A stretch of 64,000 nucleotides of DNA, taken from positions 558,001-622,000 of the forward strand of contig JACCLO010000004.1 in NCBI GenBank assembly GCA_029448655.1, in the 5' to 3' direction. Numbering within the stretch: the first letter of the stretch is position 1; every line of letters starts with the position of its first letter. Position numbers and translations under genes: made by a program. The notes below the pieces were generated by a model, which saw only the letters and a program-made list of their open reading frames with translations, did no database searches and had not been told where the DNA came from. Origin of the DNA: Wolfiporia cocos. Taxonomy: Eukaryota; Basidiomycota; Agaricomycetes; Polyporales; Phaeolaceae. Positions 9,719 through 61,177 of this stretch are shown here, piece by piece.

Positions 9719-9930
9719 ATGGAAGAAAACCATGTGGTTCTCGCATGGCAACCGTGCATTCATCGGCCTGTAGGGCATGCGTCACCATCCCCATGCCATT
9801 TCCCACGGATGGCACCTACAACACGCGTGCAGCGTTCAAGTCCCTTCGACCGTGTTTCACGCATCCTCCCTGTGCTTTCAGGCACCTATATGATACCCCA
9901 TTTGGAAGGCACACCACAGAGCACCGTGCC
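9719..9930. repeat. Helitron-interior-like fragment
   Basis: Words such as GTTCAAGTCCCTTCG and CGCATCCTCCCTG match the interior of the Helitron at 46123-46623. No ends were found, so this is probably an older fragment. Confidence 0.4.
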
Positions 9931-18642: not shown

Positions 18643-20110
18643 AATACCTACGGGTACAATGGGTGGTGAAAGATGAGTAACAGAGAAATGGACGCGCATC
18701 TCGCTGTTAATGTGGCTGCCGCTTCGTCGTCACTGTCCTCGTGAATAGCACTTCCTGTTGTTACCAAACGTGTCATATCGTCATAGTTGAAGCTCTGTCC
18801 GAATCACATGTAGTCATGTTTATATATCCTCTCTCTCTCGTCGCTTGCTCCTTTCCTCAGTCATTATACCACCGTCACGACTGAGGTACGTTCCCCTACG
18901 CTACGATACACCACCACTCGCATACTGATATGTAGTAACCCCTAGATAGGCTAATCGGCTATCTAGGTACTACAATATAGTCGTTATACCACCGTCACGA
19001 CTGAGATAGGCTAATCGGCTATCTAGGTTCTACACTTCCAACATGCTCCTGCGAACTCCTCGCTCTCCCGAATGCAGTCACAACTCCATGCTATGGCCGG
19101 CTTCGCCGCCATGGAGGATCATGGCACCCAGTGAGCATCGCTATAGATACACATCCGCTTGGCGTATCTTCCCTCCATATCCGAGCATTCTGGTTCGTAC
19201 ACCCAAGCACTCACATCAACGGCGGCCAGCGCGGACGCATAAATGCTTAATTTCGAGTTGCACATACGCCTTGTCGCGCCTCCATGTCCACCCGCACTGA
19301 CAGATGACTCTCACATCTCTTAAATACGCAACGCGACAGTGCTGTGCTCGTTTCCGCCGAGACCAAACCCGTATCGCGGCAGAAGTGCCGGTTTCCCGAG
19401 ACGATCTATGTATAATGTAACAATCCCGCATGTGCGGGCGCCGCGCGATTCTTGCACATATCGACGGTATCCGTGTCTATGGTCATTCTCGTGGGCAGAT
19501 CGTGCGTGGGGACCGCACCCGAGGTGTCTTCGCCATCGTGTGTGCAGGGGCAACTTATGAGGCAGCCGTTGGATCCGCTTCTTGACGCACAGCATGGTAA
19601 GATGGTGCGTCTGTGATGGGCAGAACAAGGACAGACCTCGAGGTTGACGTCGTGATCCGAGGCGTGATCCTTATCCGGGTGGTGGTCGGATGTCAGCCAT
19701 GCGAATGAATCTATCGCACTATACGCGACAAACGTTATGAATTGCACGTGTTGGCTATGCTCTCTTCATCAAATAAGTCGCCACAAACGTCGCCATGGCG
19801 GCCTTGAGTAGCTAGCAGGATCTGACAGCTCGATGTGGAGGCCCAAACGATAGAGTCGTGGTATTCAAGTTCAAATGCGAGCCTAATAGCATATCTGAAG
19901 GACTAGACTCAGTAGTTGGACAAGTTTCGCGGATCAGATTGGCTCACCGTGTGATCAATAAATATTATCATAAAGTTAAGCCTGAGTGAAGCAGCAAATT
20001 ACAACGTGATTGCTTAGAGATTTCGACCTACCGCACTCGCTACGGTCACGGCATACAATATGGCGATGCGGTATGAATACGTCTGTGTCTGCTGAAGTAT
20101 ACCATCACCA
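18643..20110. other. Intergenic; short direct repeats
   Basis: TTATACCACCGTCACGACTGAG occurs near 18867 and 18983. TAGATAGGCTAATCGGCTATC occurs near 18943, with a close second copy (GAGATAGGCTAATCGG...) near 19003. Several overlapping ORFs at 19043-19750 have no recognisable domain. I see no gene here. Confidence 0.6.
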
Positions 20111-23100
20111 TCATATAGCATCTTCACCTATAGTTCCCATGAACCTCTCGTAGGTGCATTCATCGTTCTGCTCTGCTTTCAGTTGTCGAATTTGGCTTCT
20201 GCAATCGTGCTCGTCAGAAATGAACTTTCTACGTCGCTTCTCTTCATTTGGTCCACATCTTGCAATCTGATCGACCAGGTGGTCTATTCTCCTCCGATGA
20301 CTACTGATGTTGGAGGATTTCTTTGCGATTTCATCGAACATAAATGATAGCGAAGAGGTCCAATCCCTGGCGAGGTCCTTGAAGCCTCTATCTGCCTGGT
20401 TCTGAAATGTTCGTTCAAACACAACTGGGTTCTCGAGAAAGGTTCTTTTCTTTTCGTTAACTTGTCCGAGATCTGCCGACTCCCATTCATAGATGCGGCC
20501 GAGTCTGTGCTGCTTGACATCGAACGTGGCACAGACATAAACGAGCAAGTAGAAGAACGACTCCAGATCATGGCGATATCGGTGCGCTGACACGCTGCCT
20601 TCAGTTAGTAGGTCGATGGCCATGAACGGTGCAGTGCCTGTGCGGTACCGTAGAGGCTCCGGTGGGAGCTCCAACTCTGCTGTCCCCGATTCCGTCTCTG
20701 GAACATCCTGAGCTTCGGACGGTGACGGCTTGCCGACATTCTTTGTGGTAAATGATCCCTCCGCGCGCAAGTTCGCCTTCCAGTTCAAAGAGCCGGCGTT
20801 CCCAGCGGGTCGTTCAGCTTTGGAGGCGGGGTCACCACTTTGATCTTCCGACTCTTCCGGATCATCGACAGGTGCTGCCGCTTGATCCCAGTCGCACAGT
20901 ACGCCGCGGACGCTCCTGCCATCGCGGTAGAACATCACATTGTTCGAGCTGATGTCTTGATGTAGGATATTGGTCTCCTTGTATACCCAGCGATGAGCTT
21001 TCCATTGTATCAGCGCGCAAATCTAAGTGAAACGTGCGACAGACTAACCACGGACGACATCAACGAAGATAATCTTGAACTCTGCAGCATTGTTCATGGC
21101 CTCTAGACGATCGTACTTCTCGAGGATCATTGTGCGAAATATCCGCTCATCAAGCACCCTCGTTCCAAGATACGCACGAGGGAGTTCGAGTTCGTCGATT
21201 TCGCGCGACAGATAGCATTTCAGCTCGACGATGTGCTTGAGGACCGACTTCTTCTTCTTAGCGAGAGCATTGCGTATCTTTCTGATACACTCTGTCTCGT
21301 CCCGATTCTGGCGTTTCACAGGCCACGCGATCTTCGCTACCAGCTCGCCCGAACCACAAACATCGACTGCATGTCCTGTGGCCCGAACGGGGACGACCGT
21401 CGTGCCTCGCCCGACGATCCCAAAATCCGTGAACACGTCGTTCTCGTTCCTCGCTGTCACTTCAAACTCGAGTGGCTCCTTGACGTCCTCGCCTCCTGAG
21501 TCCTTGACATCTTGATCAACACCAAGCACCAGCTTCGCGTTCCGGTATGTCGTGAACTTGCGCTTCGAGGTGTTGAACTCCATCAGGTGGCAGATTCCCA
21601 TCTGGTAGATGTCGGCCTGTCCCATCGCCGCCACGGTGTAGAGCAGCAGTTCGGGCTCCTCGATCATATGGATCGGTCTCGAGACGATGATGCCCATTCG
21701 ATCCGCGTACCACAGCTGCAATGTCATGTCACGGAACAGAACACCAGATCCATATGAACGGACGTTGTGAGACATCTGCTCGTTGATGTATTTCAGCATT
21801 TGCACCTCATCGTCGGTAAGCCTCAATTGTTTGCTGATTTTTTGAATGTCGGCAGCGTCGATCTCCCAACCGTGCCCGTCCGTATCGCTCGTGTCCTTCC
21901 GTGTATTTTCATGACCTCGAGACTGTCGTGTATCGGTCGCTTCCGTCACATTCTCCGTCGACAGCCGCGCCCGCTTGCCTGGCTTGATCATCTCGGGATC
22001 TACCTTGTCGCCTCGCTTCCGTTTCGCTCCTGGCCTATCGATGCACTGAGGATAGTTTTTCAAGTATCTCTGAGGGCATATTAGAAATCTGGTGAGCCGA
22101 CGCGTCCATTTACGTACATGTTTCAGCCCGTCCAGATCGATCTTGATGTCTTCCTTTCCCCACATCCACTCGCACTTTACTTTCTTCACCTCTATGGAAG
22201 CCAAGCTCCATGACCAGGCCTGCGATTGTCGGTCTTCGTTCGTGCTGAACATCATGTCCGGCTTTGCACGGCTATAGCTCCCTGTCACAATCCTGTTGTT
22301 CATGTTCACAAATTGACCGTCGAGAGGCCGAGCCATGTTGGGGACATTCGTAGGAACCGTCTTCTGACTAGCCATCTGCTTGATAGGGTTGAACAGTACG
22401 TTGCGAATCCGTTTCAGACCTCTGTTCTTGCGGTCCCGCAACGATCGCGAACATCCAGGAGCGCCATAGTCGGGGTCGCCGAAAAGCTGCCGGTGCAGAG
22501 ATTCAATGAATTCAATGAGTGGATCGTAGCACAGATCTTCCTTAGACGTGTCACAATACGCCTTGGCCAGCTTCTGCACAACAGTATAATGGTCCGTAGA
22601 TGAGGTCTCCGTCGTGGGGTGAGGAATGTCACGAATGTCTGTGGGCTCCAAGCCCCATGTACTTCGTATCAGTTCAACAGGATCGTGGTTCCATGAGATC
22701 TTGTCTGGATATTCGTCCTTGATCCATCTCACCACCGCCGCGCTCTCAATCCCGTTCTTGCTTATTACCGAGCCTATCGCAGTGCTTCGATAGATTGGTA
22801 ACGGCTCTGAGAGTCACAGATTTCATCATCAAGGCGTCCCATCACAGTATACGTATACTCACGCGTTGCCGCCAGGCGTGGAGGGGGCATCTTATTAAGT
22901 GGAGGATCATTGCCAGTGTCAGCAGATTGGCATTGACGAGGGGCGGGGACGGCGGTCGTAAAGGGTAGTTCCCTTTGTGGCACGGGAACTGGTTCATAGT
23001 TGTCTGTCACGGACTCATCATGAGAACAATCATCGTCGCTGTCTGTCGACTGCATGACGATGTGGTCGGGGACTCGGTGGAGGGATAGGGGAATGTGGCG

Positions 23101-23603: not shown

Positions 23604-24308
23604 TCAGTCAAGCTCATCCAACATCATGCCGTCGCGCTTCAAGAAGTGAAGCAGGACACTCCCGACATCCTCCCCGACGTGCAGAACCTTCTTCCAATTG
23701 ATCGCCTCGCTGGCGTCCGTGGGGTCGGCCACCGCGCATCTCATGACGTCGGCCTCGAATGCGCGCGCAAGGACCGGGTTTTCGCGCCTGAGGAAGTGCA
23801 GCAGCACGCCGCCAACGTCTTCACCGATGTGTAGGACCTTCTTCCAGTTTATAGCCGCGCTCGCGTCGGTGGGATCGGCAACGGCGCGTTTCATGACATT
23901 TGCCTCGAACTCGCGGGCAAGGATGGGGTTCTCTCGTCGCAGGAAGTGGAGCAGGACGCTGCCGACGTCTACCCCGATGTGCAGGACCTTCTTCCAATTG
24001 ATCGCCTCGCTCGCGTCGATGGCCGCGGGTACGTCGCGCACCATAATTTTATGCTCGAGTGAGCGGGCGAGCACGGGATTCTCGCGCTTGAGGAAGTAGA
24101 GGAGAACGCTGCCGATATCCTCGCCGACGTGAAGGACCTTCTTCCAGTTCATTGCTTCGCTAGCATCTGCAGGAACCGCATCTGCCCGAGCGATCAGCTC
24201 GTCTTGGAAAGCGCGTGCAAGCAAAGCATCGTTCGAGACTGGGCGCGCTATCGCAGGGATTGCGCTGGCAGCGGCGAGGACAGCGGCGAGGATGACGGAG
24301 GCACGCAT
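23604..24308 (-). CDS. Secreted four-repeat protein, possible peptide precursor
   Basis: 234 aa without introns. The N-terminus is a clear signal peptide (RASVILAAVLAAASA). The mature part is four repeats with an exact 50-residue period; DAS occurs at residues 48, 98, 148 and 198. Each repeat has a conserved core INWKKVLHVGEDVGSVLLHFL, likely an amphipathic helix, followed by KR or RR (74-75, 124-125, 174-175, 224-225). An additional KR is at 140-141. Such dibasic sites suit Kex2-like processing and would release helix-containing peptides. The segment after the signal peptide resembles the repeat linker. I recognise no family. It lies 461 bp upstream of the FunK1 gene on the same strand. Confidence 0.85.
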   Translation of the reverse strand: MRASVILAAVLAAASAIPAIARPVSNDALLARAFQDELIARADAVPADASEAMNWKKVLHVGEDIGSVLLYFLKRENPVLARSLEHKIMVRDVPAAIDASEAINWKKVLHIGVDVGSVLLHFLRRENPILAREFEANVMKRAVADPTDASAAINWKKVLHIGEDVGGVLLHFLRRENPVLARAFEADVMRCAVADPTDASEAINWKKVLHVGEDVGSVLLHFLKRDGMMLDELD

Positions 24309-26060
24309 GGTGATATGGTATAGGCATGTCGTGAGGAGAGTCGTGAACGTCCCGGTGTTGATGGTTGGTCGTGACAGGGATTAAGATGGAATCGAAGGTC
24401 GAAAAGGAATGCGAGGAACAAGAAAAAGCTAGGCTGGAATAGTCATGGTCAGTATCGTTTCCCAGGTAAGGGTGGCGAGGACGTACTAGCCAGCACCTAT
24501 GCTTGTACGTTCTGAGCTCAGAAAAGAAAAGGCTGAGAGCTGGAGTTCCTTGGCTAACAGGGCGCGGTTTTTATATTGCGAGCCCCACTACTTCCGGCCA
24601 AGCAATGCCAGGCGCACTTGCCATCAGCGGTGTTCGGACGAGCCTCAACACACCACCGGCCACGCTCAGCCACCTTGTTGAAGTTTCAGCACGTATCTAC
24701 CATCGCACCCGTTGTCAGAGATGACAAGCGTGAACAATCTATTTTGGCCAGAATGCTATTTCCGGATGTGGCTGTGCATCCAGGCCCGCGTTTGGATATC
24801 CATATCCTGCACGCGCCATGCGGATGCACGTCGCTTGGATAGGCTCGGGTCGACACATAATCACGAAGGCAGTGTTACGAGCGACGAAGGACGGACAGGA
24901 CAAAATGAATGGACATAGTCCAATTCAAATACGCCTATGGTTTAACAGAAGATGTGATGACGATGACGATGTGGTTTTTGACATGAGTTATAGTCATTGA
25001 GTACACTACAGCAGTGCGCTATGGGGTGTATAACAGTCAAGGCTCGAGGCCAGACGAGAAGTAGGCGGCAACAAGGCGCCATCACGGCGCCCGGCCTGGG
25101 CGGATCGCGAGATGTTGGCAGCACATGTCTGGCGATTACTTATATTGCATTAAAGCTTAGCGGTGACGTTCAGACAGCTGGTCAACGCGGGGGAGACATC
25201 GTTGATGATGGTGTCAGATGGAGTCCGAAACAGCTTCTAAGTGTTCCCCCGCTTGGATTCTCAAGATCGTGTTCTGGCACAACCACGATGAACCATAGCT
25301 AATAGCTGTCCTCCTAACACTTGTAATCATGTTATTGTATTGTGGGTGGATGCCCACGTCAGTCAACAAGAGGCAGGCCAGGCACGGATCCCGCGCGCAA
25401 TGTCACATCCACGTGTGCTCACCGTCACGGCGTGCATCCTCTGACTTTTAAACTTGTCAACAATCTGCGTACCATCCTATTTTTATTCTTTATTCTTTAT
25501 GAGCGGATGTATCATGACACTTTCATCGTGATAAACGGTAGGCTACCCTCATCCCAACGCTAAGAGTCAGAGCACAGCTCGTATTTGAGCATGTGGACGA
25601 TACGGATTGCGCACGAAATTATTTGTGATTATCTTCCTTTGTGCCACCGTCTTTGACTTACATTATGTTGCCTATCAGGCCTTCAGATTTGGCAGGCAAA
25701 GCAGCAGCATTCCAGGTAATGTAAATTTCACAGCCTGGCAAGTCTCATGCATTGAACAACAATGACAATCAACCATCACATGCAGGACGAGTACAGTACA
25801 GATTGTTGCAGATGCGTTTTGTTTGGCTCATTGCTCAACAGCTTAGTGGTGGGGCCGGCCTCTCCCGGCTGAAGGGCTCAACGTCCGGGAGAGCAAGATT
25901 ACTATGTGCTCGTGCGCATGCTCTTTGCTTCTCTTCCCCTTCTGCGCATTGTTCACCAGCCCGCACCGGTGCCTTCAGCGATGCCATCTCCCTGTTTCTG
26001 CTCTCCCTCCACACCCTTTGCCACTATCCTGCCGCATTTTCCGATGCGCTGACTTCCCGA
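24309..26060. other. No gene recognised
   Basis: Contains the promoter side of the secreted repeat protein, then overlapping short ORFs (24499-25563 and 25752-26132, plus) with no domain or consistent exon structure. I see no repeat ends until 26069. Confidence 0.5.
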
Positions 26061-30522: not shown

Positions 30523-31785
30523 TGTCACAGAATACCCAGTGGGGGGTTCTACGACGTCCCTTAGTTTGTATTGCAAAGGTGCCCCTAGGTGTGGGGCTAA
30601 CTCCTTACTTACAACCTTTCCTCCACGACATGCCTCGTATCTCTTACTAGACCACCTGACCCACTAGATAAGCGCTGTAGGGTAGCGCACGCCTCAGGTA
30701 CCGCACATTATGGTCACACAGTTACATGTTACGTTACGGTAGTTACATAGTCATGTGCTCTCTTAGTTACGGCGCACAGGCCCGGTACTTTAGTATCACA
30801 AGATGAACTCGCTGTGGTATTTCCTCTAAACCCCTAGGCACTAGCCTTGATTCGGCGTAGTCGAAGGGAGAACCCAAGTGCTTGGCGTATAGCCAGAGGC
30901 GAACCCTCAGTCGAGCAAGACGAGGCAGGGGAGGCACACAGGGCTAAGTCTATCAAGGGGGGCGAAGCCCCAAGATGAGAATCTTAGTTCTGAGGTCCTA
31001 GTGACCTCAGGCTAGGATATATACATCATGGGCAAGGTAACTATTCTGTAACTACCTGCCCTAATGTAAAGGTCCATGCGCAGCCCTAACGGCGTTGCTA
31101 TGACCATCATAATGTTATATAAGCGGCCGGCCAGTAATGGCAGCTGCCGATGAGTCATTGACAAGGCATCAGAGATGCGGTGTCATGATCATATGGTCAG
31201 GTGCCACCTACACGGTCACCTGCCTACATGTCATGGTCACGTGCTACCTATCTGCACGATCCCTAAGACCGACGTGACCAGTAATGGCATGCCGGGTTGG
31301 CCTAGGCCTTTGGCTAGGTTTATCAGGGGGCCCTGCCAGGCCGCATTGAGGGGTTAGCTGTGTGGTAAACCCTAGAATTAAAGGAACAAATGGGCGATGC
31401 CAGCCCTTAGGCTTTCTTGTGACATTTAGGGCAGCCATTACTGGCCAGCTACAGCATGTATAAGTATGACGGAATGAGGACTTACATCCTCATTCCTAAG
31501 ATTCTCGACAATGGGGCTTGCCCCCCTTTCTTCTCGTTCTGCGTGATGCTGGCGTGCGACATGCCCTCTCTCTCTCTCCACCTCACTAGTCTGGTACATC
31601 GACAGAGTGGTAGCCGTACCCACACAGAGCACCTTTGGTGCTCCTGGTGGACTACTTTCAGTAGTCCCACCTGGGCAGCGGTTTATGTGCAATGTTCACT
31701 GCTGCTGGACGTGCTTGTGCGCTGTGGGCGTTATGGGCCCCCCTGTCCTTGTAGGCCAGTCCCACAGACCCATAAGTCTGTGTCA
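30523..31785 (+). mobile_element. Solo LTR, family G, nested in F
   Basis: It runs from TGTCACAGAATACCC to AAGTCTGTGTCA with TSD AAAGA (30518-30522, 31786-31790). Palindrome arms GAATGAGG (31472-31479) and CCTCATTC (31488-31495) are followed by ATTCTCGAC and GGGGCTTGCCCCC. It contains another LTR at 30794-31424. Relatives form the inverted pair at 39657-40779. Confidence 0.92.
30794..31424 (-). mobile_element. Solo LTR nested in G (fourth nesting level)
   Basis: 631 bp from TATCACAAGATG (first TG changed to TA) to TTTCTTGTGACA, TSD TTTAG (30789-30793, 31425-31429). On the minus strand a TATATAT box is followed by TGAGGT/ACCTCA arms, ATTCTCATC and GGGGCTTCGCCCC. Confidence 0.9.
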
Positions 31786-39074: not shown

Positions 39075-39656
39075 CAATGTCATTGGTATAAAGGCAGTAC
39101 GTTTGTTCTCCATCAATTATTTGGACTTGGCAGCAGGACGAGAGCTGTAATACATACAAAAATGCAGAGTCTCAATCTTACCACCCATTAAATGGCTTGA
39201 GTCCACAGGTATACACAGAGTACTACAATTGTCTCAGTTGAGTAGCTGCAATGCAGTATAATGCAGTGGATACCTCAATTGTTAATCCAAGGTTATACTT
39301 TAAGGCATAGTCACATGTAGGTCACACGAGGGTACAACTATACAGACCAAGCCAGCATTGTAAGCCAGCATCCACTTCAGCTATTCTGTGCCTCCTTGCT
39401 AGCCTCTTGATCGGTCCATCTGCTCCACCAGTTGAGAAGATATGTACTGATGCTGACTGTGATCACACTCAACAGCAGCCATGTGGCCAGTACAGGAATG
39501 TTGACATGAAAGTGTGATTTTGTGTTGAATGTATTACCTGGAATGCCTGTACTGCATTGCTGCATAAATATGGGCTCAGCTATACTGACACAATGTACAA
39601 TGATCAAGGATGCACTAAAAAAAGAAAGCCTTTGCCATAGTGAAAAATACCAGGCT

Positions 39657-40779
39657 TGTCACAGAACGCCCAGTGGGGCTCTATGACATCCCTCAGCAGG
39701 TTCTTGCCCACAACCGCCTCAAGCCGTGACCGTGCCATACTCCTGCTCTGCCTCCACATCCATCCCTAGATACCGACAAGGTCGCCTGACTCAGTAGATA
39801 GCGCCCTTGGGTGGCGCACGCTTGCATTCACTCACATGACGGTCACACTAGTTACATGTAGCGTTACTAGGTAGTTCCCTTAGTTACGACTGTGGCACGG
39901 TACACAGACCTCTAGTTTAGGGCAGACCAGTAATACAAACCGCACATGTATATATTACAATGAGATGAGGTCTTACAACCTCATCTTTAGGATTCTCGAC
40001 ATTTGGGTGTATGCCCCTTTCTTGCAACCTCTCTGTGTGCACTGGTCAACACTGCCCCTCATTCCCTCTTGTCTGACTTGTCTGGGGTGCTACCTCGGCT
40101 TATAAGGTCCAAACTCACCTGAAGGCTCAGCACTGGTACGCTAGCCTAGCTGGATGCTTGGCCATAGAGAATCCCCAGCTGCACCGGTCATACAGACATT
40201 GTGAGTCTGTGTCATATATGACACAGACACACCTTGGCTGTGGGACCGGCCTACATAGGATGGGGGAAACCCCTAACACCTGCATGTCCAACGCTGAATG
40301 GGGCATAGAGGTAAGCTGACAGGGGGCATAACATCCTTTGGCCGACTTGCACCCAGTCGGAGTGGATGAGAAGGGCATGGGGGCATCCCGAGCCAGTCAC
40401 ATGCAGTCAGAGGGTATGAAAGGGGCCTAAGCCCATATGTCGAGAATCCAAGAGATGGATTGTAAGACCCATCTCACTACCATACATGTAGTGTCTACGC
40501 TAGCGGCATGCCCTAAAGTAGTGGTCTGTGCGTACATACAGGCATAACTATGGGTGACCATGAGGTAACGTAACTATGGAACAGGGGAAGTGACCATCAT
40601 GTGAGTTAGTGCGAGCACATGCTGCCCAAGGGCACTGTATCTACAGGGTCAGGTGACTTGTCAGTATCTAGGGAGATGAGGAGGCGGGACAGGGGTACAG
40701 TGCAGTCATGGCTCGAGGCAGTCATGGACAAGAACCTGTAGAGGGATGCCGTTAGAGCCCCACTGGGTGTTCTGTGACA
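39657..40779. mobile_element. Inverted pair of family G LTRs joined tail-to-tail by TATA
   Basis: LTR G1 (39657-40214, plus) and LTR G2 (40219-40779, minus) face each other. The junction reads TGTGTCATATATGACACA. Only the outer ends carry a TSD, AGGCT (39652-39656, 40780-40784). The LTRs are clearly diverged; their promoter palindromes are GATGAGGT/ACCTCATC and GAGATGG/CCATCTC. The whole unit interrupts the SNG1-like gene. Confidence 0.92.
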
Positions 40780-41265
40780 AGGCTGCAATATGACGGGATA
40801 TTCGGTGGTGGAAACATTCATAATGATCTGACAATAGCATAACAGTGACAATGAGTGTGACATTTTGCTCAGTTTGGAACGTGAATGAGACACACCAGTG
40901 TGATCAGAAAGAAGGGTGTGTAATGAATTGTAAGCATGCTGATGGTGAACTCAGTTGTGAGCCCTACCACATCCATGAAGACATACACAATGATCCAGAA
41001 CAGGAAGAATTCTTGAGCTTCTGTGTACTTTGCGCTAATTGGGACGTGAAATGGTAATGAGACCATAGCAAACACAAGCAAAAGCAGGATGTAAGCCAGA
41101 AGTGGTGCAAAAATGCGCAATGCAATGTAGGAGCCTATTGAGAGATGTGGCAATGAAGTGGGCAGAGAGAACAATTTGCTATCATCTATTGGAATCAGGA
41201 AATAGGCATCAGCAAAAGGGGACACATGAGCAGATGTGCAACACAATGTACGAGAAAAAATGAGA

Positions 41266-46914: not shown

Positions 46915-49806
46915 ATGCAGACCGCCGACGGCCACGACCACCATGAATGCGCACAGAAAAGCTATGAGCCAAAATCTACGTTTCAGAGACAAGTCCCATT
47001 CACGACTGCTATCCCCGCCCCGCGACAATGTCGATCAGTTGGGATTGATTATCGTTCGGCTGCAACGAGTGGGTTTTTGCAAAATCTGATAGCATGCCGC
47101 AGCTTAAATCATTCTCATTGTCAGAGCCGTCACTATTGTCAGAGCCGTCACTAAAGTACCGAAGCACCGCACAGGGCTCTCTAATAAGCAAGAACGGGAT
47201 TGAGAACAAGGCGGTCGTGGACTGGATCAAGCGCGAATACCCAGACAAGATCTCATGGGACTGTGATCCTGTCGAGCTCATACGGAGTGTATGGGGTCTG
47301 GAACCCACGGGCATTTGCCAAAATGCGCACCTCAAGATGGAGACCTCATCTACGGGCCAGTATACCATTATAAAGAAGCTGGCCAAGGCATATTGTGATG
47401 CGTCCGAGGGAAGGCATTGCTACGCATCCCTCCTCAGATTCCTTGGATCTCTCCATCGACAGCTCTTTGGTGACCCAGACCTTAACGTTCCGAGTTCTTC
47501 GCAAACGTTGCGGGACCTCAAAAGCCGAGGTTCAAACCGGATCGAGAACGCGTTGTCCAAGCGCCCCGCCAGCCGCAAGACGTTCGTGACGAACGTGCCC
47601 GAAACAGCGAGGCCTCTCGATGGTCGATTTTTGCACATGAAAAACAGGATTGTGTCAGGGAGGTATTACCGCGCAAGGCCGATCGTGATGTTCAGCACGA
47701 ATGAAGGCGGGCAATCTCAGGACTGGTCATGGAGTTTGGCTTGTGCAGAGGTCACGAAAGGAGAGTGCGAGTGGATATGGGGAGAGGAAGACATCATGAT
47801 TGATCTGGATGAGCTTAAGCATGTACGTGAATCGACGCGTCGGCTCACCAACGTCACTGATATGGCCTTAGAGATACCTGAGGGACTATCCTCAATGTAT
47901 CACAAGAGCAGGAGAGAAACGGAAGCGAAGCGACAAGGTAGATCTAGAGATGATCAAGTCGGGCAAGCGGGCGCTGCTGTCTGCGGAGAATATGACAGAA
48001 GCGACCAATACACAAGAGTCTCTAAGACGTGGAGATGCACGGGAGGATGCGACCGATAAGGACTACCAAGGCCGGGAATCCGACGGTATCAAACGACTGG
48101 ACCTTACGGGCGACGAGGCGCAAGTTCTCACACACATCAACGAGCAGATGTCTCACAATGTTCGTTCGTACGGATCTGGCATCCTATTTCGTAACATGAC
48201 ATTGCAGCTGTGGTACGCGGATCGAATGGGCATCATCGTCTCGAGACCGATCCATATGATCGAGGAGCCCGAACTGCTGCTCTACACTGTGGCGGCGATG
48301 GGACAGGCCGACATCTACCAGATGGGAATATGCCACCTGATGGAATTCAACACCTCCAAGCGCAAATTTGCGACATATCGGAATGCAAAGCTGGTGCTTG
48401 GTGTCGATCAAGATGTCAAGGACTCAGGAGGCGAGGACGTCAAGGAGCCACTCGAGTTTGAAGTGACAGCGAGGAACGAGAACGACGTGTTCACGGATTT
48501 TGGGATCGTCGGGCGAGGCACGACGGTCGTCCCCGTTCGGGCCACAGGACATGCAGTCGATGTTTGTGGTTCGGGCGAGCTGGTAGCGAAGATCGCGTGG
48601 CCTGTGAAACGCCAAAATCGGGATGAGACAGAGTGCATTAGGAGAATTCGCAATGGACTCCGTAAGAAGAACCCATCGATCCTCAAGCACATCGTCGAGC
48701 TGAAGTTTTACATGTCACGCGAAATTGACAAATTCGGACTCCCTCGTACGTATCTTGGAACGAGGGTGCTTGATGAGCGAATATTCCGCACAATGATCCT
48801 CAGGAAGTACGATCGTCTAGAGGCCATGAACAATGCTGCAGAGTTCAAGACCATCTTCATTGATGCCGTCCGCGGTTAGTCTGTCGCATATTTCACTAGA
48901 TTTGCGCTGACACAATCGAAAGCTCATCGCTGGGTATATGAGACAACCAATATCCTACATCAAGACATCAGCTCGAACAATGTGATGTTCTACCGCGATG
49001 GCAGGAGCGTCCGCGGCGTGCTGTGTGACTGGGATCAAGCAGCAGCACCTGCCGATGATCCGGAAGAGTCGGAAGATCAAAGTGATGACCCCGCGTGGTC
49101 CGCTTCCAAAGTCGAACGACCCACTGGAAACGCCGACTCTCTGCACTGGAAGGCGAACTTGCTCGCGGATGGGTCGTTTACCCCAAAGAATGTCGGCAAG
49201 CCGTCACCGTCCGGAACTCAGGATGTTCCAGAGACGGAATCGGGAGCAGCAGAGTCGGAGCTCCCACCGGAGCCTCTACGGTACCGCACAGGCACTGCAC
49301 CATTCATGGCCATCGACCTACTAACTGAAGGCAGCGTGTCAGCGCACCGATATCGCCATGATCTGGAGTCGTTCTTCTACTTGCTCGTTTATGTCTGTGC
49401 CACGTTCGATGTCAAGCAGCACAGACTCGGCCGCATCTATGAATGGGAGTCGGCAGATCTCGGACAAGTTAACGAAAAGAAAAGAACCTTTCTCGAGAAC
49501 CCAGTTGTGTTTAATGACACATTCCAGAATCAGACCGATCCAGGCCTCAAACATCTCGCTGAGGATTGGGCTAGACTGTTAAAGATTATGTTCTTCAAGA
49601 TAGCACACAAGTCCTCCGATATCATGAGTCTTCGTGAGCAGCGAGACTACCTAGTCAGGTACAGGTTGAGTGACGAGAAGCGACGTAAACAGTCCATCCC
49701 TGACGAGCACGAGATCCGAAGCCAAATCCGACAACTGAAAGCAGAACAGAACGAGCAATGCACCTACGAGAGGTTCATGGAGATAATAGGTGCAGCTGCT
49801 AGTTGA
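46915..49806 (+). CDS. FunK1-type protein kinase, copy 2
   Basis: Exons 46915-47068, 47143-47822, 47872-48874 and 48923-49806 join in frame to 906 codons. Introns are 74, 49 and 48 bp. The second exon has two in-frame acceptors 18 bp apart (after 47124 or 47142), both ending GTCAG, inside a short direct duplication. The start used by copy 1 corresponds here to a changed codon (GCG near 46838), so translation probably starts at 46915 or uses another upstream frame. Motifs are as in copy 1: GRGTTVVPVRATG, AKIAWPVK, HQDISSNNVM and CDWDQA. Substrate unknown. It lies in opposite orientation to copy 1, 24 kb away, and the similarity extends into the upstream region. Confidence 0.87.
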
Positions 49807-50073
49807 TGGTACATCCAGACACCCAAGCATTCATATGGCATTACCGTATTGTATGGCATCACCGTATTGTATGCAGTCCGAGCTCGTCGTCGCAGCGGTG
49901 GGTAATGGGAAGCGGCAATGCAGCGCGCTGTGAGTGTTGATAAGTTGGGCGGGACCGGCGTTAGCCGGAACGGACACAGGAGATGTAGGAGCCGCTTACC
50001 AGAGAAAGCGCAGAGGCGCACCGCGGCGAAAGCAGGGACAGCGCGCCGCCCGCCCAACCCAGAGCCGATGCCC
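49807..50073. other. Spacer between the FunK1 gene and the recombinase gene
   Basis: The two genes are convergent, their stop codons 267 bp apart. The repeated ATGGCAT(T/C)ACCGTATTGTATG near 49834-49870 is the only structure seen. Confidence 0.6.
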
Positions 50074-51138
50074 TCAGAAACCGTAGGCGGCCCCAGCGCC
50101 GGCTAAGTGATGCGAAGTGACCTGTTCAAAGGCCCGAATGTACGTTTCGTAGGCCAGGGACTTCCAGCGTCCGAGGAGGCGCACGACCTCCGGGTCGACC
50201 TTCTGTGAAAGGAGGAAGGAGGCACCTCCGATGCGGAACGAGTGGCCAAAAGAAGTGCCCCACCCCAGGATGGAGAAAACCGCGTTCACACGGCGCAACG
50301 CCGCGGACTTGACCAGAGGTCGCGTCGTGCCGGCACGGTCGACCCAGCAGAACAGGGGGTCGTCGGGGCCAGCGGGGCAGATGGTGCGTAGGTTGAGCAG
50401 TGCGTCGATGGGGCACAGATTGCCCTGGCGTGCAAGCCAAATGTGTTGCACCTCCCCCGGCCGGGCCGTCTTGGCGGACGGCAGGTCAAGGCGTGCGTAC
50501 TGCTTGCCATCCAGATCAAAGGAAACGAGGGCGTCACGGCGCTTGAGGTGCATGGTGCCGCAGAATGCAGCGCGAGAGGATACCGACACCTCACCGAAAC
50601 GCATGAGACCCCAGAAGGCGCAGCAGGCGGCGGCCCAGACGCACGCGTCGAAAGGATCAGAGAGCACCAGGACCTCCTTGAGGGCTGCGAGCATGTGCAA
50701 GGTCACTGACGGCCGCGGTGGGCGTCGCCGCGAGCCAACCAGGCGCTCCAGACCGCGCAGCGACCAGTCGATGCGGGCATGTGCGTCGTCGTCAAGGGGC
50801 GGCGGCCAGCCCTGGGCGATGTGCCACGCCCGGACGCCTGCGAGGTACTTCTTGACAGAGCCCACAGAGATGGGCTCGAAGGGTGGACCGTCAGCGAAGG
50901 CGGGGTCGTCGGGGTCTGGGTCGGCCACGGCCCACAGGGCAAAGGAGTGCAGGACGGCAAAAGAGGCGGGTAGGCGGTCCGTCTCTGGCACAGAAAATAT
51001 GTCACAACACAAGTGAAACTTGCGCAGCCCAGAGCCGTATCGCGAAGTGATGCGCGTGATGCAATGTCCGCTAGGTGCTTCAGCACAGGTCGGTCGATGA
51101 CTTGAGGAATTCCCAGTGAAAATTTGAATATATCTCAA
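50074..51138 (-). CDS. Tyrosine recombinase (transposon-type integrase)
   Basis: 354 aa in one frame. The N-terminal half is helical (SRYGSGLRKFHLCCDIF...LHSFALWAV), like the core-binding domain of tyrosine recombinases. The catalytic half has Arg in FWGLMRFGEV (about residue 178), His-x-x-Arg in FGHSFRIGGAS (about 296), GRW, and the likely Tyr nucleophile in YETYIRAFE (about 330). These are the R-H-R-Y residues expected for strand cutting and joining. Related genes in mushrooms are usually parts of DIRS- or Crypton-like transposons. No reverse transcriptase or split repeats were found here, so it may be a lone Crypton-like gene or a remnant. Start at the first Met is tentative. Confidence 0.85.
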   Translation of the reverse strand: MRYIQIFTGNSSSHRPTCAEAPSGHCITRITSRYGSGLRKFHLCCDIFSVPETDRLPASFAVLHSFALWAVADPDPDDPAFADGPPFEPISVGSVKKYLAGVRAWHIAQGWPPPLDDDAHARIDWSLRGLERLVGSRRRPPRPSVTLHMLAALKEVLVLSDPFDACVWAAACCAFWGLMRFGEVSVSSRAAFCGTMHLKRRDALVSFDLDGKQYARLDLPSAKTARPGEVQHIWLARQGNLCPIDALLNLRTICPAGPDDPLFCWVDRAGTTRPLVKSAALRRVNAVFSILGWGTSFGHSFRIGGASFLLSQKVDPEVVRLLGRWKSLAYETYIRAFEQVTSHHLAGAGAAYGF

Positions 51139-52042
51139 TGAATCCTGATGTATATAAATCTATCCAGAAAAGTTCAATGTACCGAAATCTATCCAATGTA
51201 ATCCAAATGTATCCACAGATCATGTGACCTGCTTCGTAGATTTGCCATTGAACGACAGATCTGACGGTAAGGTTGCGTTAACGTTGCGTAAGTTGCGCAC
51301 GTGTACGGTTGCATTTTGTATGAGCAAGGGAGTTGCATCCAGAGTCATGCATATATTGTTGCGGTTAGCATGCTTATGGTGCTATGCTTCGTTGCTGCCC
51401 TCTGTACCGCCGTACTACTGTTTGTGCGTCCATCCATACCCCTGCTTTTTATCAAATCATATTAATTACACTATGCCTGTAGAAATTGACAACAATTGGA
51501 TCAGAACTAATTTCTGTGGCTGTGGTGAACAATTCCAGAAGAGGATATCTCCTTTTGTGGCAGAACCACCTCCTATAGCTACAAAGCAGCAAAGACACAT
51601 TGTGCGCCATCCACGTCAGGTTTGTTGTGTATATTGGACATGTTTTTGCTGATGATGCAGCTTGCAGCCGACTCCTTCTTGTCTTCACATCACACCTTAG
51701 CCACAATCCATTTATGGTAACGCTTCTACCTGAACTCGCAGTATCATCACGTCATTTCCCTTCGTGGTTTCATTTTAGGTTCATTCACTATTCTGTTGTC
51801 CCTTGAACCTTATTCCCTCACTACACATAAGCGGGCTCACGGCACGGTTCAGTCTATCTCTATCTTGTCTTCTCCCTGTGCTTTTCTTACATCTAGTTGG
51901 TCTCTGGTCTTGGCAAGGCGACACCATCCCCTCCAGCTCAAGAAAAGCCAAACGACCACACGTGAGTAAACAACCCCCCATGTGCATAAGTACTTGAGCC
52001 GTTAGTTTCTAGTTTAGTCTTGTCTACCTACATGAGCCCATT
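51139..52042. other. Unassigned; one possible small exon
   Basis: A frame opening near 51474 (MPVEIDNNWIRTNFCGCGEQF) runs to a possible donor after 51629. It has a CGCG cysteine cluster and no recognised family. Short ORFs further on lack support. Confidence 0.3.
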
Positions 52043-52084: not shown

Positions 52085-52480
52085 CATGCCTTAACTGTCA
52101 GGACTACCCTCGGGTGGGCCCACATTTTCCATGAACAGATGGTCATGATGGTCACGGGTCAGCCCACAACTGCTGCAACTGGATGGTTGTGATGGTTGTG
52201 GGTCGGCCCATGACAACCACAACCAGACAGTTGTGATGGTTGCGGGTCAGCCCATAACCATCACGACTTGACAGTCATGATGGTTGCAGGTTGGCCCACC
52301 AATGCCATGACCAAATGATTGTGATAGTTGCAGGTTGGCCCACAACTTCCATGATCAGACTGTTATGACAGTCACATGTCGGCCCATGACTGCCACAACT
52401 GGACGGTTATGATGGTTGTGGGTTGGCCCACAACTGCTGCAACCTGGCAGTAATGACAGTTGTGGGTTGGCCCACAACCA
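52085..52480. repeat. Minisatellite, GTTGTGG-TCGGCCCA type
   Basis: Units of roughly 45-65 bp contain GGT(C/T)GGCCCA(C/T)AAC and its partial inverse GATGGTTGTGG, so each unit can fold back on itself. A related array is at 56790-57060. Confidence 0.75.
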
Positions 52481-52935
52481 TGGCATGTTGCCATGACCTC
52501 TGCATCTGCAACTTTGGCGACCTCCACGACCTTTGCGACCTTTGCAACCTCTGTGACCTTCGTGGCCTCCGTGACCTCCGTGACCTTTGCAACCTTCACA
52601 GCCTCTGCAACCTTCACAGCCTTCGTGACCTCCATGACCTCTGTGACCTCTGTGACCTTCACAACCTCCACGACCTTCACGGCCTCTGTGACCTTCACAG
52701 CCTCCGTGACCTCTGCAACCTCTGCAACCTCTGTGACCTCCACGGCCTCCACAACCTCCATGACCTTTGTGACCTCCACAACCTTTGTGACCTTCACAAC
52801 CTTCATGACCTTCGTGGCCTCCGCGACCTCCATGACCTATGCGACCTCTGCAACCTTCGTGACCTCCATGACCTTTGTGGCCTTCATGGCCTTCATGACC
52901 TCCATGACATCTGAAAGTTGCAGATGTGGAGGTCA
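52480..52935. repeat. Short-period repeat, GACCTC(C/T)GTGACCTTTGCAACC type
   Basis: A 9-12 bp degenerate period over about 450 bp keeps all plus frames and several minus frames open (Leu/Asp/His or Thr/Ser/Phe, and Gly/His/Glu on the other strand). The long ORFs here are artefacts of the repeat. Confidence 0.85.
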
Positions 52936-52940
52936 CAGAG

Positions 52941-53836
52941 TGTCACGGATCTCCTTGTGACGTCTTATCCCTAAGGTTCAAGCTTGTCGCACTAGACTTA
53001 GGCTGCAATCCAACTAGGAAGCGGCTTATTCAAGGCAAGCAGGTGGCAAAGAGGTAAAGGGTGGAGAGGAAATAGGGAAAGGGGAAACACCCCCAACACT
53101 CATAGTAGAATGCTTAGAATATTGAGTCTAAGGTTTAGACCCTAGACCACCTGGTTATATACATATTTGGAGACCTTGTACTACTGGTAGCAATGTCTGC
53201 CCTAAATGTAGCTGGTCTGTGCACATATAGTCATGTCATAATTGCCTGTAATGGCTTTATAATGAGGTGATAGTGGTGCCATAAGGTACCTTGTCTATCT
53301 TTAACCTGGTTTGTAAGTAAAATGCTATTGTTAGCATTGGTTTGTAAGTAATGACCTCAGAACCTCATCATGTGTGATGTCATAGTGGCTCTGTGGTCTA
53401 GACGATGATATCATATAGTTCTGGCCTCTTTGATATATGTAATACCTGTGGGAGGGGTAACTATGTAGATAGGTTTCAGCCCTGTAATTGGACCTGCTAA
53501 GTATAGGCTCCTAAATATAAGCCTGATGTCATAGACTGGACCTGTATGGGCCCTGATGTCATAATGATGTGGACTCTTGATGATGTCATGCCTCAGGAGG
53601 CCTTTGACGACTAAGTACTTAGCCAGATAAGATCTTGAGCACCTGACAAGGTGCCTGTGGTGGTGCCTAGTGCCGCTATCTAATCTTGAAGTTTGGTAGG
53701 TCACGTGACCTCAATTCAGTAGGTCACATGATTCGATAACTTTTGGGACGCTGTAGCGCCTTCAGTTATAAGCCTAGTACCCGAGTACAGGGGTCTGGAG
53801 GGCTAAAATGGGGGTTGCATGAATAAATCTGTGACA
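52941..53836 (-). mobile_element. Solo LTR, family F, copy 2
   Basis: 896 bp from TGTCACGGATCTCC to AAATCTGTGACA, TSD CAGAG (52936-52940, 53837-53841). The arms GTCTAAGG (53126-53133) and CCCTAGAC (53140-53147) replace GTCTGAGG/CCTCAGAC of copy 1 but still pair. Confidence 0.94.
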
Positions 53837-53841
53837 CAGAG

Positions 53842-54594
53842 GTCACAGAAGTTGCAGACATGGAGGTCATGGAGGTTGTGAAAGTTGCATATGCAGAGGG
53901 CATGGAGGTCATGGAGGTCGAGGAGGTCGAGGAGGTCGTGAAGGTCGTGAAGGTCACGAAGGTCATGGAGGTTGTGGAGGTTGCGGAGGTCATGGAGGTT
54001 GCGGAGGTCACGGAGGTTGCGGAGGTCGACGGAGGTTGCGGAGGTCGTGAAGGTTGCGGAGGTTGCGGAGCAACTTCTGCAACCCAGTTGTTGCTGCTAT
54101 GCCTGTTGCAACCTCTTATTCACTTTTACACTCCCTGTGACTTATAAAATCTGCAACCATGACCCTCCTCCTGGTCCTTATGACCTGTACCCACAACCTC
54201 CACAAGTTTCATAACTTCTGTGGCTTTTTAGCCTCTGTGATTTCTATGGCTCAATTGGCACTACCACGCCTGCTGTGACCACAGTAATTTAGTTTTTACT
54301 ATATCTGCAACCTCTGCAACCTGTGACCGTGACCCACCGTGACTCCCGTGACCTGAGAATGCGACTTTTGCGACTTTCACAACTTATGCAGCTCTCACAA
54401 CCTCTGCAAACCCTGCAACCTTTGTCACATCATACCGTGGCTCTTGTAGCCTTCACACCTTGTCACCACAATTTCCATGACTTCTGCAACTTGCAGCCGC
54501 GACCAACCACGACCCTCGCGGCCTGTGATCGTGACCTCTGTGACCTTCATGACCTCTGTGACTTTTGCAACCTCCACAACCTCCACACCCTGTT
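53842..54594. repeat. Short-period repeat, GAGGTCATGGAGGTTG type and inverse
   Basis: The first part (to about 54070) is the inverse of the 52480-52935 array in base content. The second part (54300-54594) returns to CAACCTCTGCAACC words. ORFs across it are low-complexity. Confidence 0.8.
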
Positions 54595-54894
54595 TGTCAC
54601 AGTTTTTGCACTGTGACATGACCCTGCTATTGCTTTGATTTTACAGGGTTTTCTGGCCATTGTGCGGCCCCTGGATCCTATGGTAGCACCTCCACGTCCC
54701 TCCCTCTCATGTTAGATGCCTGACCCAGTAGATTACGGATAAGATAAGATGTACGGCACTAGGGGTAGCGTGCTCCCATCACGTTACGGTCACACTATGT
54801 ACGTGGTACGTTACGGTAGTTACATGTCATGAGGACCTCTAGATACAGTGCACAGACTGTGTCTTTAGGGTAGGCCACTAGTAGCTACCAGCCA

Positions 54895-54945
54895 TGTATA
54901 TAACATACGACGAGATGAGGGTTAGCCTCATCTCTATGATTCTCA
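54895..54945 (+). promoter_or_regulatory. LTR promoter with start-site palindrome
   Basis: A TATATAA box (about 54897-54903) is followed by arms GAGATGAGG and CCTCATCTC. The predicted RNA start ATCTCTATGATT (54930-54941) is the exact reverse complement of 55639-55650, just after the LTR. Confidence 0.75.
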
Positions 54946-55104
54946 GCAATGGGTACAAGGCCCCTCTCTTACACCTGACTCCCTGTGTGCCGCCTTGCTA
55001 AGACGCCTCCAACATGCTCGTCTCCCTCTAAGCTCACTAGTCTGGTAGTGGCGCCCTACAGCCGGACTCACCGCCTTACGTACGTCAGCCACTGGAGACT
55101 AGGA

Positions 55105-55572
55105 TGTCACGGTTTTTACCGTGGCATGGGTTCAATCCCGTACCTCCTCAGACATACGGTCACATGATTACGCGCAGCTTTAGTGTAGTGGTAGGATCGC
55201 CCCCATAGTAGCGTAACTAACCACGTGTATAGGTTGCCTCTTGCTTACGTACTATAGCACATGACTGACATGCGCGCACGGTCCCTTACTGTAGGGTAGG
55301 ACTTACGTCGCGCCTCTGTAGTACAGCATGTATATAGTCTACTGCGCTGGGGCCTTACAGCCCCATGCTTGTTATTCTCGACGTTGGGGCTTGTCCCCCT
55401 GTATACCATCTCTACCCCTGCATGCGCCTGCTGGCTTAGCCACCTCTTATACCTGCTCGTCTGCGCCTCGTCACTACGGTGTGGGGATACCCCCAAAGGA
55501 CTTGCGTGTTAGGTTGAGGGCCACTAGGACAGCGGTACACAGGATATACGGTATGAGGGTATATCTGTGTCA
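55105..55572 (+). mobile_element. Solo LTR L, nested in the J 5' LTR
   Basis: 468 bp from TGTCACGGTTTTTACC to TATCTGTGTCA, TSD TAGGA (55100-55104, 55573-55577). The TATATAG box near 55331 is followed by GGGGC/GCCCC arms, ATTCTCGAC and GGGGCTTGTCCCC. Confidence 0.93.
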
Positions 55573-55638
55573 TAGGAGTTAGAGCATTAGGGGGGTTCCC
55601 CGCTTGCGCGGTCCCACAGTCTGGTAAGACTGTGTCAT

Positions 55639-55650
55639 AATCATAGAGAT
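55639..55650 (+). promoter_or_regulatory. Self-priming type primer-binding site of J
   Basis: AATCATAGAGAT begins one base after the 5' LTR. Its reverse complement lies in the 5' LTR at 54930-54941, 27 bases after the TATA box. The 3' LTR has a different sequence at this point. Confidence 0.75.
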
Positions 55651-56789
55651 ATTTTACTCCCCCCCCGCGCTGTACGTTGGCGCGGGCTGGAGGGTTTTCT
55701 ACATGCAGGTTCCCATGGCGACACGGCAGGGTAGCCTCTGACACAAGCGTCAGGGGTCCGTACTTTTACGAGCCCCCACTAAGTGTCTAGCCTACGCGTG
55801 GAGCCGCATGGAATGAAACACGAAAGGCCGCCCCCTTTATTATAGGTAGTGGGGGACTAGGGTACGTACATCAGCGTTACCCCCCCTGGGCGGTGGGCCT
55901 CGCCAAGAATCACTGACCTATGGGTATGCGAAGGGACCTTCGGGTCCCAACCCCATATCGACCAGTCACGAAGGCAAGACGACGACACGCACCTTAGACA
56001 CCAACGCGGGATGTCCACTGATGCACGCCAGGGGGAGACGGACTCCCCACCGCCCGACACACCTATTTCAAAGAAGCTAAGTAAAGTAATAGGTGGACAC
56101 GTAGTAAACAACAACCGCGGTAACTACACCAAGGCCGCTGCATCCACCGACCTCAACAACTGCGTTAAGACTTCACCATAGGTATATCGTCAGGGACGAC
56201 GATTTTAAAAGAGGGGGTTATGTCACAGATTTACATCTGTGACATGGCCCTGCTATTTCTTTGCTTTTTACAGGGTTTTCTGGCATTCATGCGGCCCCTG
56301 GAGCGGTAGTTAGCACCTCCACGTCTATCCCTCTCACGTTAGATGCCTGACCTAGTAGATAACGATAAGATAAGATGTACGTGCACACTTGGGTACGCAC
56401 CTATCCCCATCACATTACCAGTCACAGTATGTACATGTTACGTTACGGTCATTGCACATCACATGGACCTTTAGGTACGGCGCACGGACCGCACCTTTAG
56501 GGTAGGCCATTAGTAGCAACCATACATGTATATAACGTACAACAGAATGAGGCTTACTCCTCATTCTTGAGATTCTACGACTTTGGGCATAAGGCCCCTC
56601 TCCTCCTCTCTGTGTGCACCTGCGCCTGTCGGTCCCGACCTGCTCGTCTCCCCTCATATGCGCTAGTCTGGTAGCGACGTCCTGTCTCTGGACTCACCGC
56701 CCCACGTCCGCTCGTCCCTGTGGAGAAGGAGTTAGAGCTTTAGGGAGATCCCCGCTTGTGCGGTCCCACAGTCAGGTAAAACTGTGTCA

Positions 56790-57062
56790 CGCGGCAACAG
56801 GCCGTGGTTGTGGGCTGACCCACAACCATTGCTACTGTCTGGTTGTGGCAGTTGTGGGCCGACCCACAACCATCATAACTGTCAAGTCATGACAGTTGTG
56901 GGCCAACCTGCAACCGTCATAACCATCAAGTCACAGCAGTCATGGCAGTTGTGCGCCAACCTTCAACTGTCATTACTGTCAGGTTGCAGCAGTGGTGGGC
57001 CGACCCACAACTGTCACTACCATCTGATTGTGGGCCCACCTAATGGTAGGCCTAATGGTTAA
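56790..57062. repeat. Minisatellite, GTTGTGGGCCGACCCACAAC type
   Basis: Units of about 50-60 bp centred on the palindrome GTGGG(C/T)(C/T)GACCCACAAC. Related to 52085-52480 and probably the other side of the same repeat block. Confidence 0.75.
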
Positions 57063-59548: not shown

Positions 59549-61177
59549 TGACACAAACTAGTTGTGGGACTCACTTTACTCGACTATAAAGCTTGAGGGG
59601 CCCAAGGGGCGAGGTGAGGGACTAGTAGCGCAGCAGGAGTGATGTGCAGGAGTTGCGAATGCAAAAGAACAAATCTAAAGAATAGCGTAGAGCTATTCCT
59701 ACTTATATACATTGTCACAAGCCAATTTCAAAGCCTAGTAGAACACCCTAGGTTGACACCCCATTCACGCCATAAGCACGCTACAGCACTCTATCCGAGC
59801 CCAGCTGGAATCCTACGGCAACGCTAGTAGAAGCCCTCCGCTATACAGGACACTACGGGCACTAGCAGGCCACCAGCAGTCTAACCCTAAACTCAGTCCA
59901 AGTCCCGGCAGCATGAGCCATACGCTGCCTAGTCCCTAAACCACGGAGTCACGAGTCGACCCCTAGAGCCCAACAGGCTACGATAGCACGACGGTACGCC
60001 TTGCGCACACACCCAGGCTAAACCACCGCCGTACAATGTGCTATACGCCGACTAGGGGCACGACCTACACTCGCACGTGACCCAGAACACTAAACCTACC
60101 ACCTCGCGTCCCTACCGCACGGACACTCGCCATTACTGGCATAGACACTATACTATACCCCGTATGCACCCTGACCTACGAGTACAACAGGCAGGGATAA
60201 TACCTCCAGGCTCTGCACGACTGAGAACCCTACCAGTCACAGAGCGCTACACCCCGATCGCAGCCGATCATGCTCGATCAACCTACGCTACACCCGGCCC
60301 GTACTAGCCAGCCCCCGATCGTGGCAGACCACGCCAGATCACGGACTTAGAACCCCGCCATTACCGGCACACCTACGATCGACGAGAACCACCGATCGAA
60401 CCCGACCAATTGGCTATTCCTTTGATCCGACCCTTATACACTACGTCGCCATGGACATCCTCACGTACCCCAGCGCTCCGATGCCATTACCGGCACATAG
60501 CTCATAGCCAGTTAGATACCAGTACGTAGAGGCCTCTGAGCCACCGTACACAAACATGTACCAATAGATTAGGAGTATATATGCCGGACAGTCTTGAGCG
60601 TAAACCTCAGACTTGTCTTGGCCTTTTGTGCCTTGAGATGCCCGGACCAGGAAGGCGCTTTCATGCGACCCACCTTCCCCCGGTGTGTGTCTTAAGGTTG
60701 CGCTTGTGTCATACATGCAGCGACAGCAGCTGGTAATGGTCTGCCCTGAGTACTGGGTCTGTGCGCTTGTACAGATATTACAGCTAAGTCGTAATATACA
60801 ATAGACCATGTGCGCCAGTAATGGCCGCACCAGTAAGAAACAAGCTTTGGACCAGTAGGTCCACATTGACATTGTGGCTACAAGGGTTTGTAAGCCGAGT
60901 AAGCATGATGACATATGCCAGTATCGGGATATGAGTCATCTAAGGCGTTGGCTTGTGATAAACCTTGGGGCCGCTTACATATAGTACATGACATGCGCAT
61001 TATTTACGTGTTGTTATGAACAGTGGATGTGATAGCGCATTATGTACATGCTATTTGGTTTGGTGTACGTGTCTACAGGTGCTTATGGCAGCGAGCTTGA
61101 ATATGCTCGTAGAAATGCAGGAAAAATAGGTAAAAAAAAAAATAGGAAAATTCGTAGAATGTCCCAGATCTGTGACA
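59549..61177 (-). mobile_element. Solo LTR, family A, copy 3, nested in B, split by LTR K
   Basis: It runs from TGACACAAACTAG to AGATCTGTGACA with TSD TCCCG (59544-59548, 61178-61182), about 625 bp without the insert. Confidence 0.94.
59713..60711 (+). mobile_element. Solo LTR K, nested in A
   Basis: 999 bp from TGTCACAAGCC to GCGCTTGTGTCA, TSD TACAT (59708-59712, 60712-60716). The TATATATG box near 60576 is followed by AGTCTTGAG/CTCAGACT arms. A second copy starts at 63190 in the other orientation. Confidence 0.95.

Follow-up and report, generated by a model that had tools for sequence, protein, structure and literature searches.

In the window, the whole 64-kb stretch of DNA that was analysed, two kinds of LTR retrotransposon, the Gypsy element G and the superfamily to which element J belongs, probably prime minus-strand DNA synthesis with the 5′ end of the element RNA itself, in the manner of Tf1. 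On sequence patterns, we give this reading, taken as the whole explanation, a probability of about 0.88. Transcription would start at the A of R, as judged from the TATA spacing and the usual end of the complement, and the first ~11 nt of the RNA (10 in the types of G and of L, a solo LTR in the window) would pair with a primer-binding site (PBS) located just after the sequence CA|TA. In J types, a short second helix would form between the LTR end and the bases that follow the primer. By analogy with Tf1, the RNA would then be cut behind the primer by RNase H and extended by reverse transcriptase, and the resulting cDNA would extend past the LTR by 2 bp, which are presumably trimmed at integration. 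J-type elements and those of Q, a solo LTR nested in J, would use another element's proteins in trans, and a predicted hairpin between the end of U3 and the start of R changes in step with the primer.

Elements of the window

An earlier note on this DNA had based the proposal of self-priming on one complement in G and one in J, both of which proved exact. Element G lies on the minus strand, with a 371-bp 5′ LTR (TGTCACAAGCC...GCTTGTGTCA) at 18272–18642, a 3′ LTR of 98.9% identity at 10455–10825, and the target-site duplication (TSD) GTATT flanking it on both sides. Its PBS AAGACGAGTCT (18260–18270, minus) begins 1 nt past the LTR and, read from 18270 to 18260, is the exact reverse complement over 11 nt of the predicted RNA start and self-primer AGACTCGTCTT, read from 18375 to 18365. 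The TATA box TATATA (18402–18407, minus) is at LTR position 236 and the R start at 268, and minimum-energy folding predicts a hairpin between U3 and the beginning of R at 18366–18395 (minus). A polypurine tract (PPT), AGAAGAGGGGG, is found at 10829–10839 (minus), immediately upstream of TAC and the 3′ LTR. Two overlapping frames (10788–17521, minus) encode domains recognized by Pfam as dUTPase, protease, RT, RNase H, integrase, and a Tf2-1-like SH3 (SH3_Tf2-1). The chromodomain match of G (Chromo, 13.1 bits) is below the Pfam cut-off of 25.1, and PF00385 is present in many related proteins. Among named proteins, the top match comes from Wolfiporia cocos (82% over 61% of the query). G is abundant in the genome, with at least 150 RT matches (150 scored of 1572 candidates), many of them in frames >2000 aa; viral contigs yielded 0 matches to a PBS pattern and no relatives of the G protein. 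The dUTPase domain directly precedes the protease (12962–17521, minus).

Element J, on the plus strand, consists of a 5′ LTR (54595–55637), an interior (55638–56220), and a 3′ LTR of 569 bp (56221–56789). The 5′ LTR spans 1043 bp because it includes the nested solo LTR Q (TGTCACGG...CTGTGTCA; 55105–55572, plus), which is bounded by the TSD TAGGA at 55100–55104 and 55573–55577, so that the true J LTR is ~570 bp long. Q, which belongs to a family other than J's, is high-copy in the genome independently of J. The TATA box TATATAA of J (54897–54903) is followed by a hairpin pairing U3 with the R start (GAGATGAGG-GTTAG-CCTCATCTC, 54912–54934, predicted by fold with z −4.5) and by the predicted RNA start and self-primer ATCTCTATGATT (54930–54941). 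The latter is the exact 12-nt reverse complement of the PBS AATCATAGAGAT (55639–55650), 1 nt past the LTR; if TA is a 2-bp spacer, the 11-nt core of this PBS is 55640–55650. The PPT, AAAAGAGGGGG, lies at 56207–56217. The two J LTRs are 74.8% identical over 500 bp and 89% over 64 bp, their R starts differ, and no TSD was found, the flanks being CTGTT and CGCGG; J is therefore old or recombinant. The superfamily that it belongs to has been mobile recently, is TRIM-like, and apparently lacks coding capacity. On either side of J, at 52113–54030 and 56793–57024, lie repeat arrays with units of 9 and 44 bases, partly as inverted copies.

Further LTRs of the same kind occur in the window. Solo LTR K, of J type (30523–31785, plus; TSD AAAGA), has the R start ATTCCTAAGATT, and the PBS expected from it, AATCTTAGGAAT, also exists in the genome, at the loci L100, L103, and L115. 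Solo LTR L (59713–60711, plus; TSD TACAT) has the R start AGACTTGTCTT, matching the PBS AAGACAAGTCT that is present elsewhere in the genome. In M (39657–40779), two J-type LTRs stand tail to tail, joined by TATA, with a single TSD, AGGCT, around both (39652–40784). No tRNAs were detected in the 64-kb window by ARAGORN, run with the bacterial code.

G and J had been presented in the earlier note as two unrelated, independent elements. Their LTRs indeed have no significant overall similarity, but the independence does not fully stand, since the two share their LTR termini (TGTCACA...TGTGTCA), the CA|TA sequence, and their overall arrangement, and each has a G-rich PPT.

Primers and primer-binding sites across the genome

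The proposal was examined among further members in the window's own genome, a 64.4-Mb assembly. The 11-nt complement was found in 30/30 Gypsy G loci, collected by similarity to the R-U5-leader of G and with 99–104 nt from R to the LTR end; the G copies being alike, these loci represent little independent evidence. J-type loci numbered 56, of which 40 were retrieved via similarity to the J post-LTR region and 16 via a PBS pattern, and R could be located in 55 of them by its own motif, without use of the PBS. The complement was exact over 12 nt in 51/56, compared to a mean of 8.5 and a maximum of 17 of 55 when R starts were shuffled among loci (2000 shuffles). For the L-type sister PBS AAGACAAGTCT, 5/6 loci were exact. 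The members whose post-LTR bases fail to complement the R start are limited to L067 (R unrecognised), L069 (8/12), L091 (9/12), L111 (10/12), and L112 (11/12) among J types and L119 (9/11) among L types; L069 and L091, whose R starts belong to other types, are apparently recombinant. These counts support the self-priming reading. The underlying patterns were also frequent genome-wide, with 222 matches to the J-type PBS pattern (9 for the control) and 230 to the G/L pattern (0 for the control).

Across the fetched loci we distinguished 19 PBS types, 18 of which are matched exactly, over 11–13 nt, by one or more R starts, a number that comes from rows picked for a match, the unselected counts being the 30/30, 51/56, and 5/6 given above. 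Seven of the types are not of J type and include five found by match scanning (two Q types, L003, L007, and L035), so that only the remaining types constitute tests. Exact J types vary at R positions 3, 4, 5, 7, and 8. Many primer and PBS types have thus changed jointly within one genome, which amounts to a natural mutational experiment, and at the sequence level this joint change argues strongly that self-priming occurs outside yeast.

Priming by a host tRNA or tRNA fragment, with an LTR complement that is incidental or serves another RNA fold, is highly improbable in view of this variation: the PBS types of the J superfamily differ by 1–4 bases and the R start changes along, which a tRNA could not follow. 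As had been noted earlier, TGG is also absent directly after the 5′ LTR in both G and J. Some LTR families of this genome may nevertheless be tRNA-primed, since an LTR-end-like motif followed by TGG gave 81 genomic matches vs. 35 for the control.

The complements could alternatively be functionless, arising by chance or from a shared ancestry of LTR ends, and end motifs are indeed common to the families. We searched random window positions for complements of at least 11 nt starting 0–2 nt after the position, with the partner 60–760 nt upstream, after exclusion of the main repeats, palindromes, and these LTRs. Such complements did occur, at 67 of 46,136 positions, but only two positions combined a complement of at least 10 nt with a correctly spaced TATA box, in keeping with the earlier judgement that these matches are unlikely by chance. 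With fewer repeats excluded, the corresponding numbers were 154 and 6 of 35,757 positions. LTR-end-like motifs in the window and 100 loci had an upstream complement of at least 10 nt in 81/404 cases, which fell into 15 kinds, 14 of them in LTRs and one (window position 9784) that looks spurious, being in a repeat with no TATA box. Since PBS, R start, U3 arm, and LTR-end helix also vary together, we regard a functionless origin as having next to no probability.

RNA start, hairpin, and side helices

The edge of the complement coincides with the expected position of transcription initiation: a TATA box starts 30–35 nt before the predicted start, R+1, in 36/38 distinct segments, a recognisable one being absent in L061 and L102. 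The complement rarely extends past the A of R: in only 2/55 J-type loci (L112 and L121) does the nucleotide preceding R+1 pair with the one that follows the PBS. The PBS is copied from the primer in every reverse-transcription cycle, and the edge of the complement is therefore best read as the RNA 5′ end. In silico, the primer pairs with the PBS in 16/16 folds of RNAs begun at R+1.

The start of R is also engaged in a second potential pairing. Minimum-energy folds pair U3 with the R start by at least three pairs in 36/37 distinct segments (the exception being L035), with a mean z of −3.4 vs. dinucleotide shuffles, in a set whose segments are mutually related and were picked for a PBS match. 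L121, offset by one, was excluded from this set and from the next. In that set, of 46 segments, nine of them from LTRs picked otherwise, several pair types are seen at R positions 2–5, and position 3 alone pairs as C-G in 26, T-A in 7, A-T in 6, and G-C in 2, with 5 unpaired. This covariation means that the primer is constrained by the PBS and by the U3 arm at once. The window's own locus, L001, was dropped from a hairpin run, from the test for a third helix (see below), and from the complement and TATA scans.

The prevalence of this hairpin, whose 3′ arm overlaps the primer, raises the alternative that the primer is this arm within a longer RNA started upstream and cut at the hairpin foot. 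For such a start, however, the distance to the TATA box would be well below 25 nt, and a stop of the complement at the A of R, with the next base pairing in so few J-type loci, likewise argues against it. Adding 34 nt of upstream U3 to the folds further reduced the expected primer-PBS pairs from 10.0 to 0.1 in G and in one L-type RNA, and to 2.3 in L061, the other 13/16 keeping 7.2–10.5; upstream U3 thus eliminates primer-PBS pairing in G and the L type and lowers it in the majority of folds. We consider a cut hairpin arm a very unlikely primer, and prefer priming by the 5′ end of an RNA begun at R+1.

With self-priming from R+1, an RNA that starts where it should has no U3 arm at the 5′ end but has one beside the 3′ copy of R, and our guess is that the hairpin sequesters the primer sequence of the 3′ LTR and of read-through RNA. 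It offers a testable idea of how an RNA with two primer copies picks the right one. Judging from the folds, such a guard role is plausible, if unproven, and would be complete in G and the one L-type RNA, strong in L061, and partial or weak in 13/16; the hairpin may affect transcription or RNA 3′ ends. One could go further and view the hairpin as a proofreading device by which only the correct RNA 5′ end primes, with U3 arm, primer, PBS, and LTR end co-evolving, and with non-coding elements that keep the device and borrow the enzymes, a speculative extension that we think is rather unlikely to hold in full.

A further helix is suggested by the J-type LTR ends, which read either TGTGTCA or TGTGACA. 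The sequence at a distance of three bases past the 12-nt R start follows this difference, being GACA (or GACG, GGCA) with TGTGTCA and GTCA (or GTCG) with TGTGACA. A standard pair is kept at the swapped base in 52/53 J-type loci, R not having been found in L067, L091, and L111 among the 56; the one locus without it is L069, whose PBS match is likewise inexact. The swap is seen even inside single primer types (ATCTTTAGGATT, ATCCTTAAGATT, and ATCTCTAAGATT), which indicates that the second helix reflects more than family inheritance alone. In J itself, which has decayed, this helix is mutated, with AGCA vs. GACA in its relatives. A side duplex in G and the L type was seen by fold only. A third helix of Tf1 type, between post-PBS bases and LTR sequence behind the primer, was overall not above shuffles.

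Non-coding carriers, cDNA ends, and known systems

Several J-type and Q elements have LTRs that are nearly or fully identical, and they seem to be non-coding. The J-type elements L121–L124 have LTRs of 559–579 bp that are 99.6–100% identical (the L121 repeat includes a few flanking bases), and the interiors of L122–L124 are 768–797 bp long. L124, the sole element with frames listed, has no frame >135 aa. TSDs were identified for L123 (CTGGG) and L124 (CAGTG); L122 is without one, and L121 seems to belong to a tandem array. Among Q copies, L009 has LTRs 99.6% identical, an interior of 620 bp, and the TSD TTTGG, and L007 has LTRs 100% identical, an interior of 571 bp, and the TSD GACCT. Seeming non-coding, these elements would need proteins in trans, for which a G-like Gypsy element, sharing LTR ends and PPT style, is a plausible donor. 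This suggests that protein-less LTR elements can carry their own primer, without need for a host tRNA. J-type PBS sites also recur every 1346–1374 bases, in a tandem-array-like arrangement of LTR plus short interior, at three places of the assembly (G000:C1:741103-743814, C5:1591400-1595472, and C7:519306-520699).

Junctions between elements provide information on the cDNA ends. M looks like two cDNA U5 ends joined before a single integration; a genome-wide pattern for M-like junctions matched M and one other place, the latter in U5-to-U3 form. At L003 (1501–3440, G000:C15), the sequence TAAA links a Q-type LTR to a full element that has 100% identical LTRs and is of a different family, and one TSD, GCTGC, encloses both parts, so that this composite looks like a chimeric cDNA concatemer. 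The arrangement TGTGTCA-TAAA-TGTCAC was found at least 6 times among the matches listed (100 of 136 junction-like ones), and a reversed control pattern gave 41 matches of any junction. These sequences suggest that unprocessed cDNAs, extending past each LTR by 2 bp (TA at U5 and AA at U3), were joined end to end, in which case the primer 3′ end would adjoin TA. From these few junctions, we infer that 10 nt serve as primer in G and L, and that the J, Q, L003, L007, and L035 types use 11 nt.

Self-priming itself is known from the Tf1/sushi group, and a survey of Cryptococcus is said to have reported self-primed elements. It is established for Tf1 and, in the accessible portions of the papers, predicted for many Tf1/sushi elements as well as for plant Tcn1 and TAR (PMC4600332, PMC6317226, PMC10085805). 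As in Tf1/sushi elements (Tf1, Tf2, Tj1, Tosmo, Tcry), the PBS of the elements described here complements the RNA 5′ end, with the CA of the LTR directly before it, and G encodes a Tf2-1-like SH3. A side duplex adjoining the PBS is likewise shared, and the J-type second helix is the counterpart of one side duplex in the “pretzel” structure, as far as the accessible part of its description goes (PMC10085805). In contrast to that group, the J and Q types seem non-coding, the primer is 10 nt in G and L, the third duplex does not rise above shuffles, the G chromodomain falls under the Pfam cut-off, and the U3/R hairpin covaries, a feature unmentioned in the accessible part of PMC10085805.

The non-coding carriers resemble TRIMs in having a short non-coding interior between LTRs, a PBS and PPT, and recent copies. 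TRIMs are described, in the accessible part of the source, as <1 kb in total, with LTRs of 100–250 bp and a tRNA-complementary PBS, and a bivalve TRIM is assigned no mechanism there (PMC6934838). In the elements described here, LTRs are 470–579 bp, totals ~1.5–2 kb, and the PBS is of self type; given this PBS and the longer LTRs, we call them only “TRIM-like”. For plant Tcn1 and TAR elements, self-priming has similarly been predicted from an LTR complement, in both Ty3/Gypsy and Ty1/Copia, and what is accessible of that report presents them as protein-coding and polyprotein-classified (PMC6317226), whereas our evidence comprises within-family co-variation and non-coding carriers. The literature searched, mostly without subscription papers and partly in excerpts, contained no description of self-priming in non-coding elements and none of a covarying U3/R-border hairpin containing a primer copy; these two features were thus not found described. 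G is further comparable, by domain presence, to the dUTPase-encoding basidiomycete Gypsy element PosPlaTy3 of Postia placenta, in which, according to the accessible text, the dUTPase position in the polyprotein varies and includes the amino end of Pol (PMC2864245), that of G being just before the protease.

Other genes of the window include a 258-aa frame (23604–24380, minus) with 50-residue repeats and, by eye, a secretion-signal-like start, for which the Pfam match is only sub-threshold. A 361-aa frame (50074–51159, minus) has no Pfam match. By eye, it resembles a tyrosine recombinase. Finally, two inverted Pkinase_fungal genes (20041–22810 and 47139–49866), ~83% alike, have broken or split frames.
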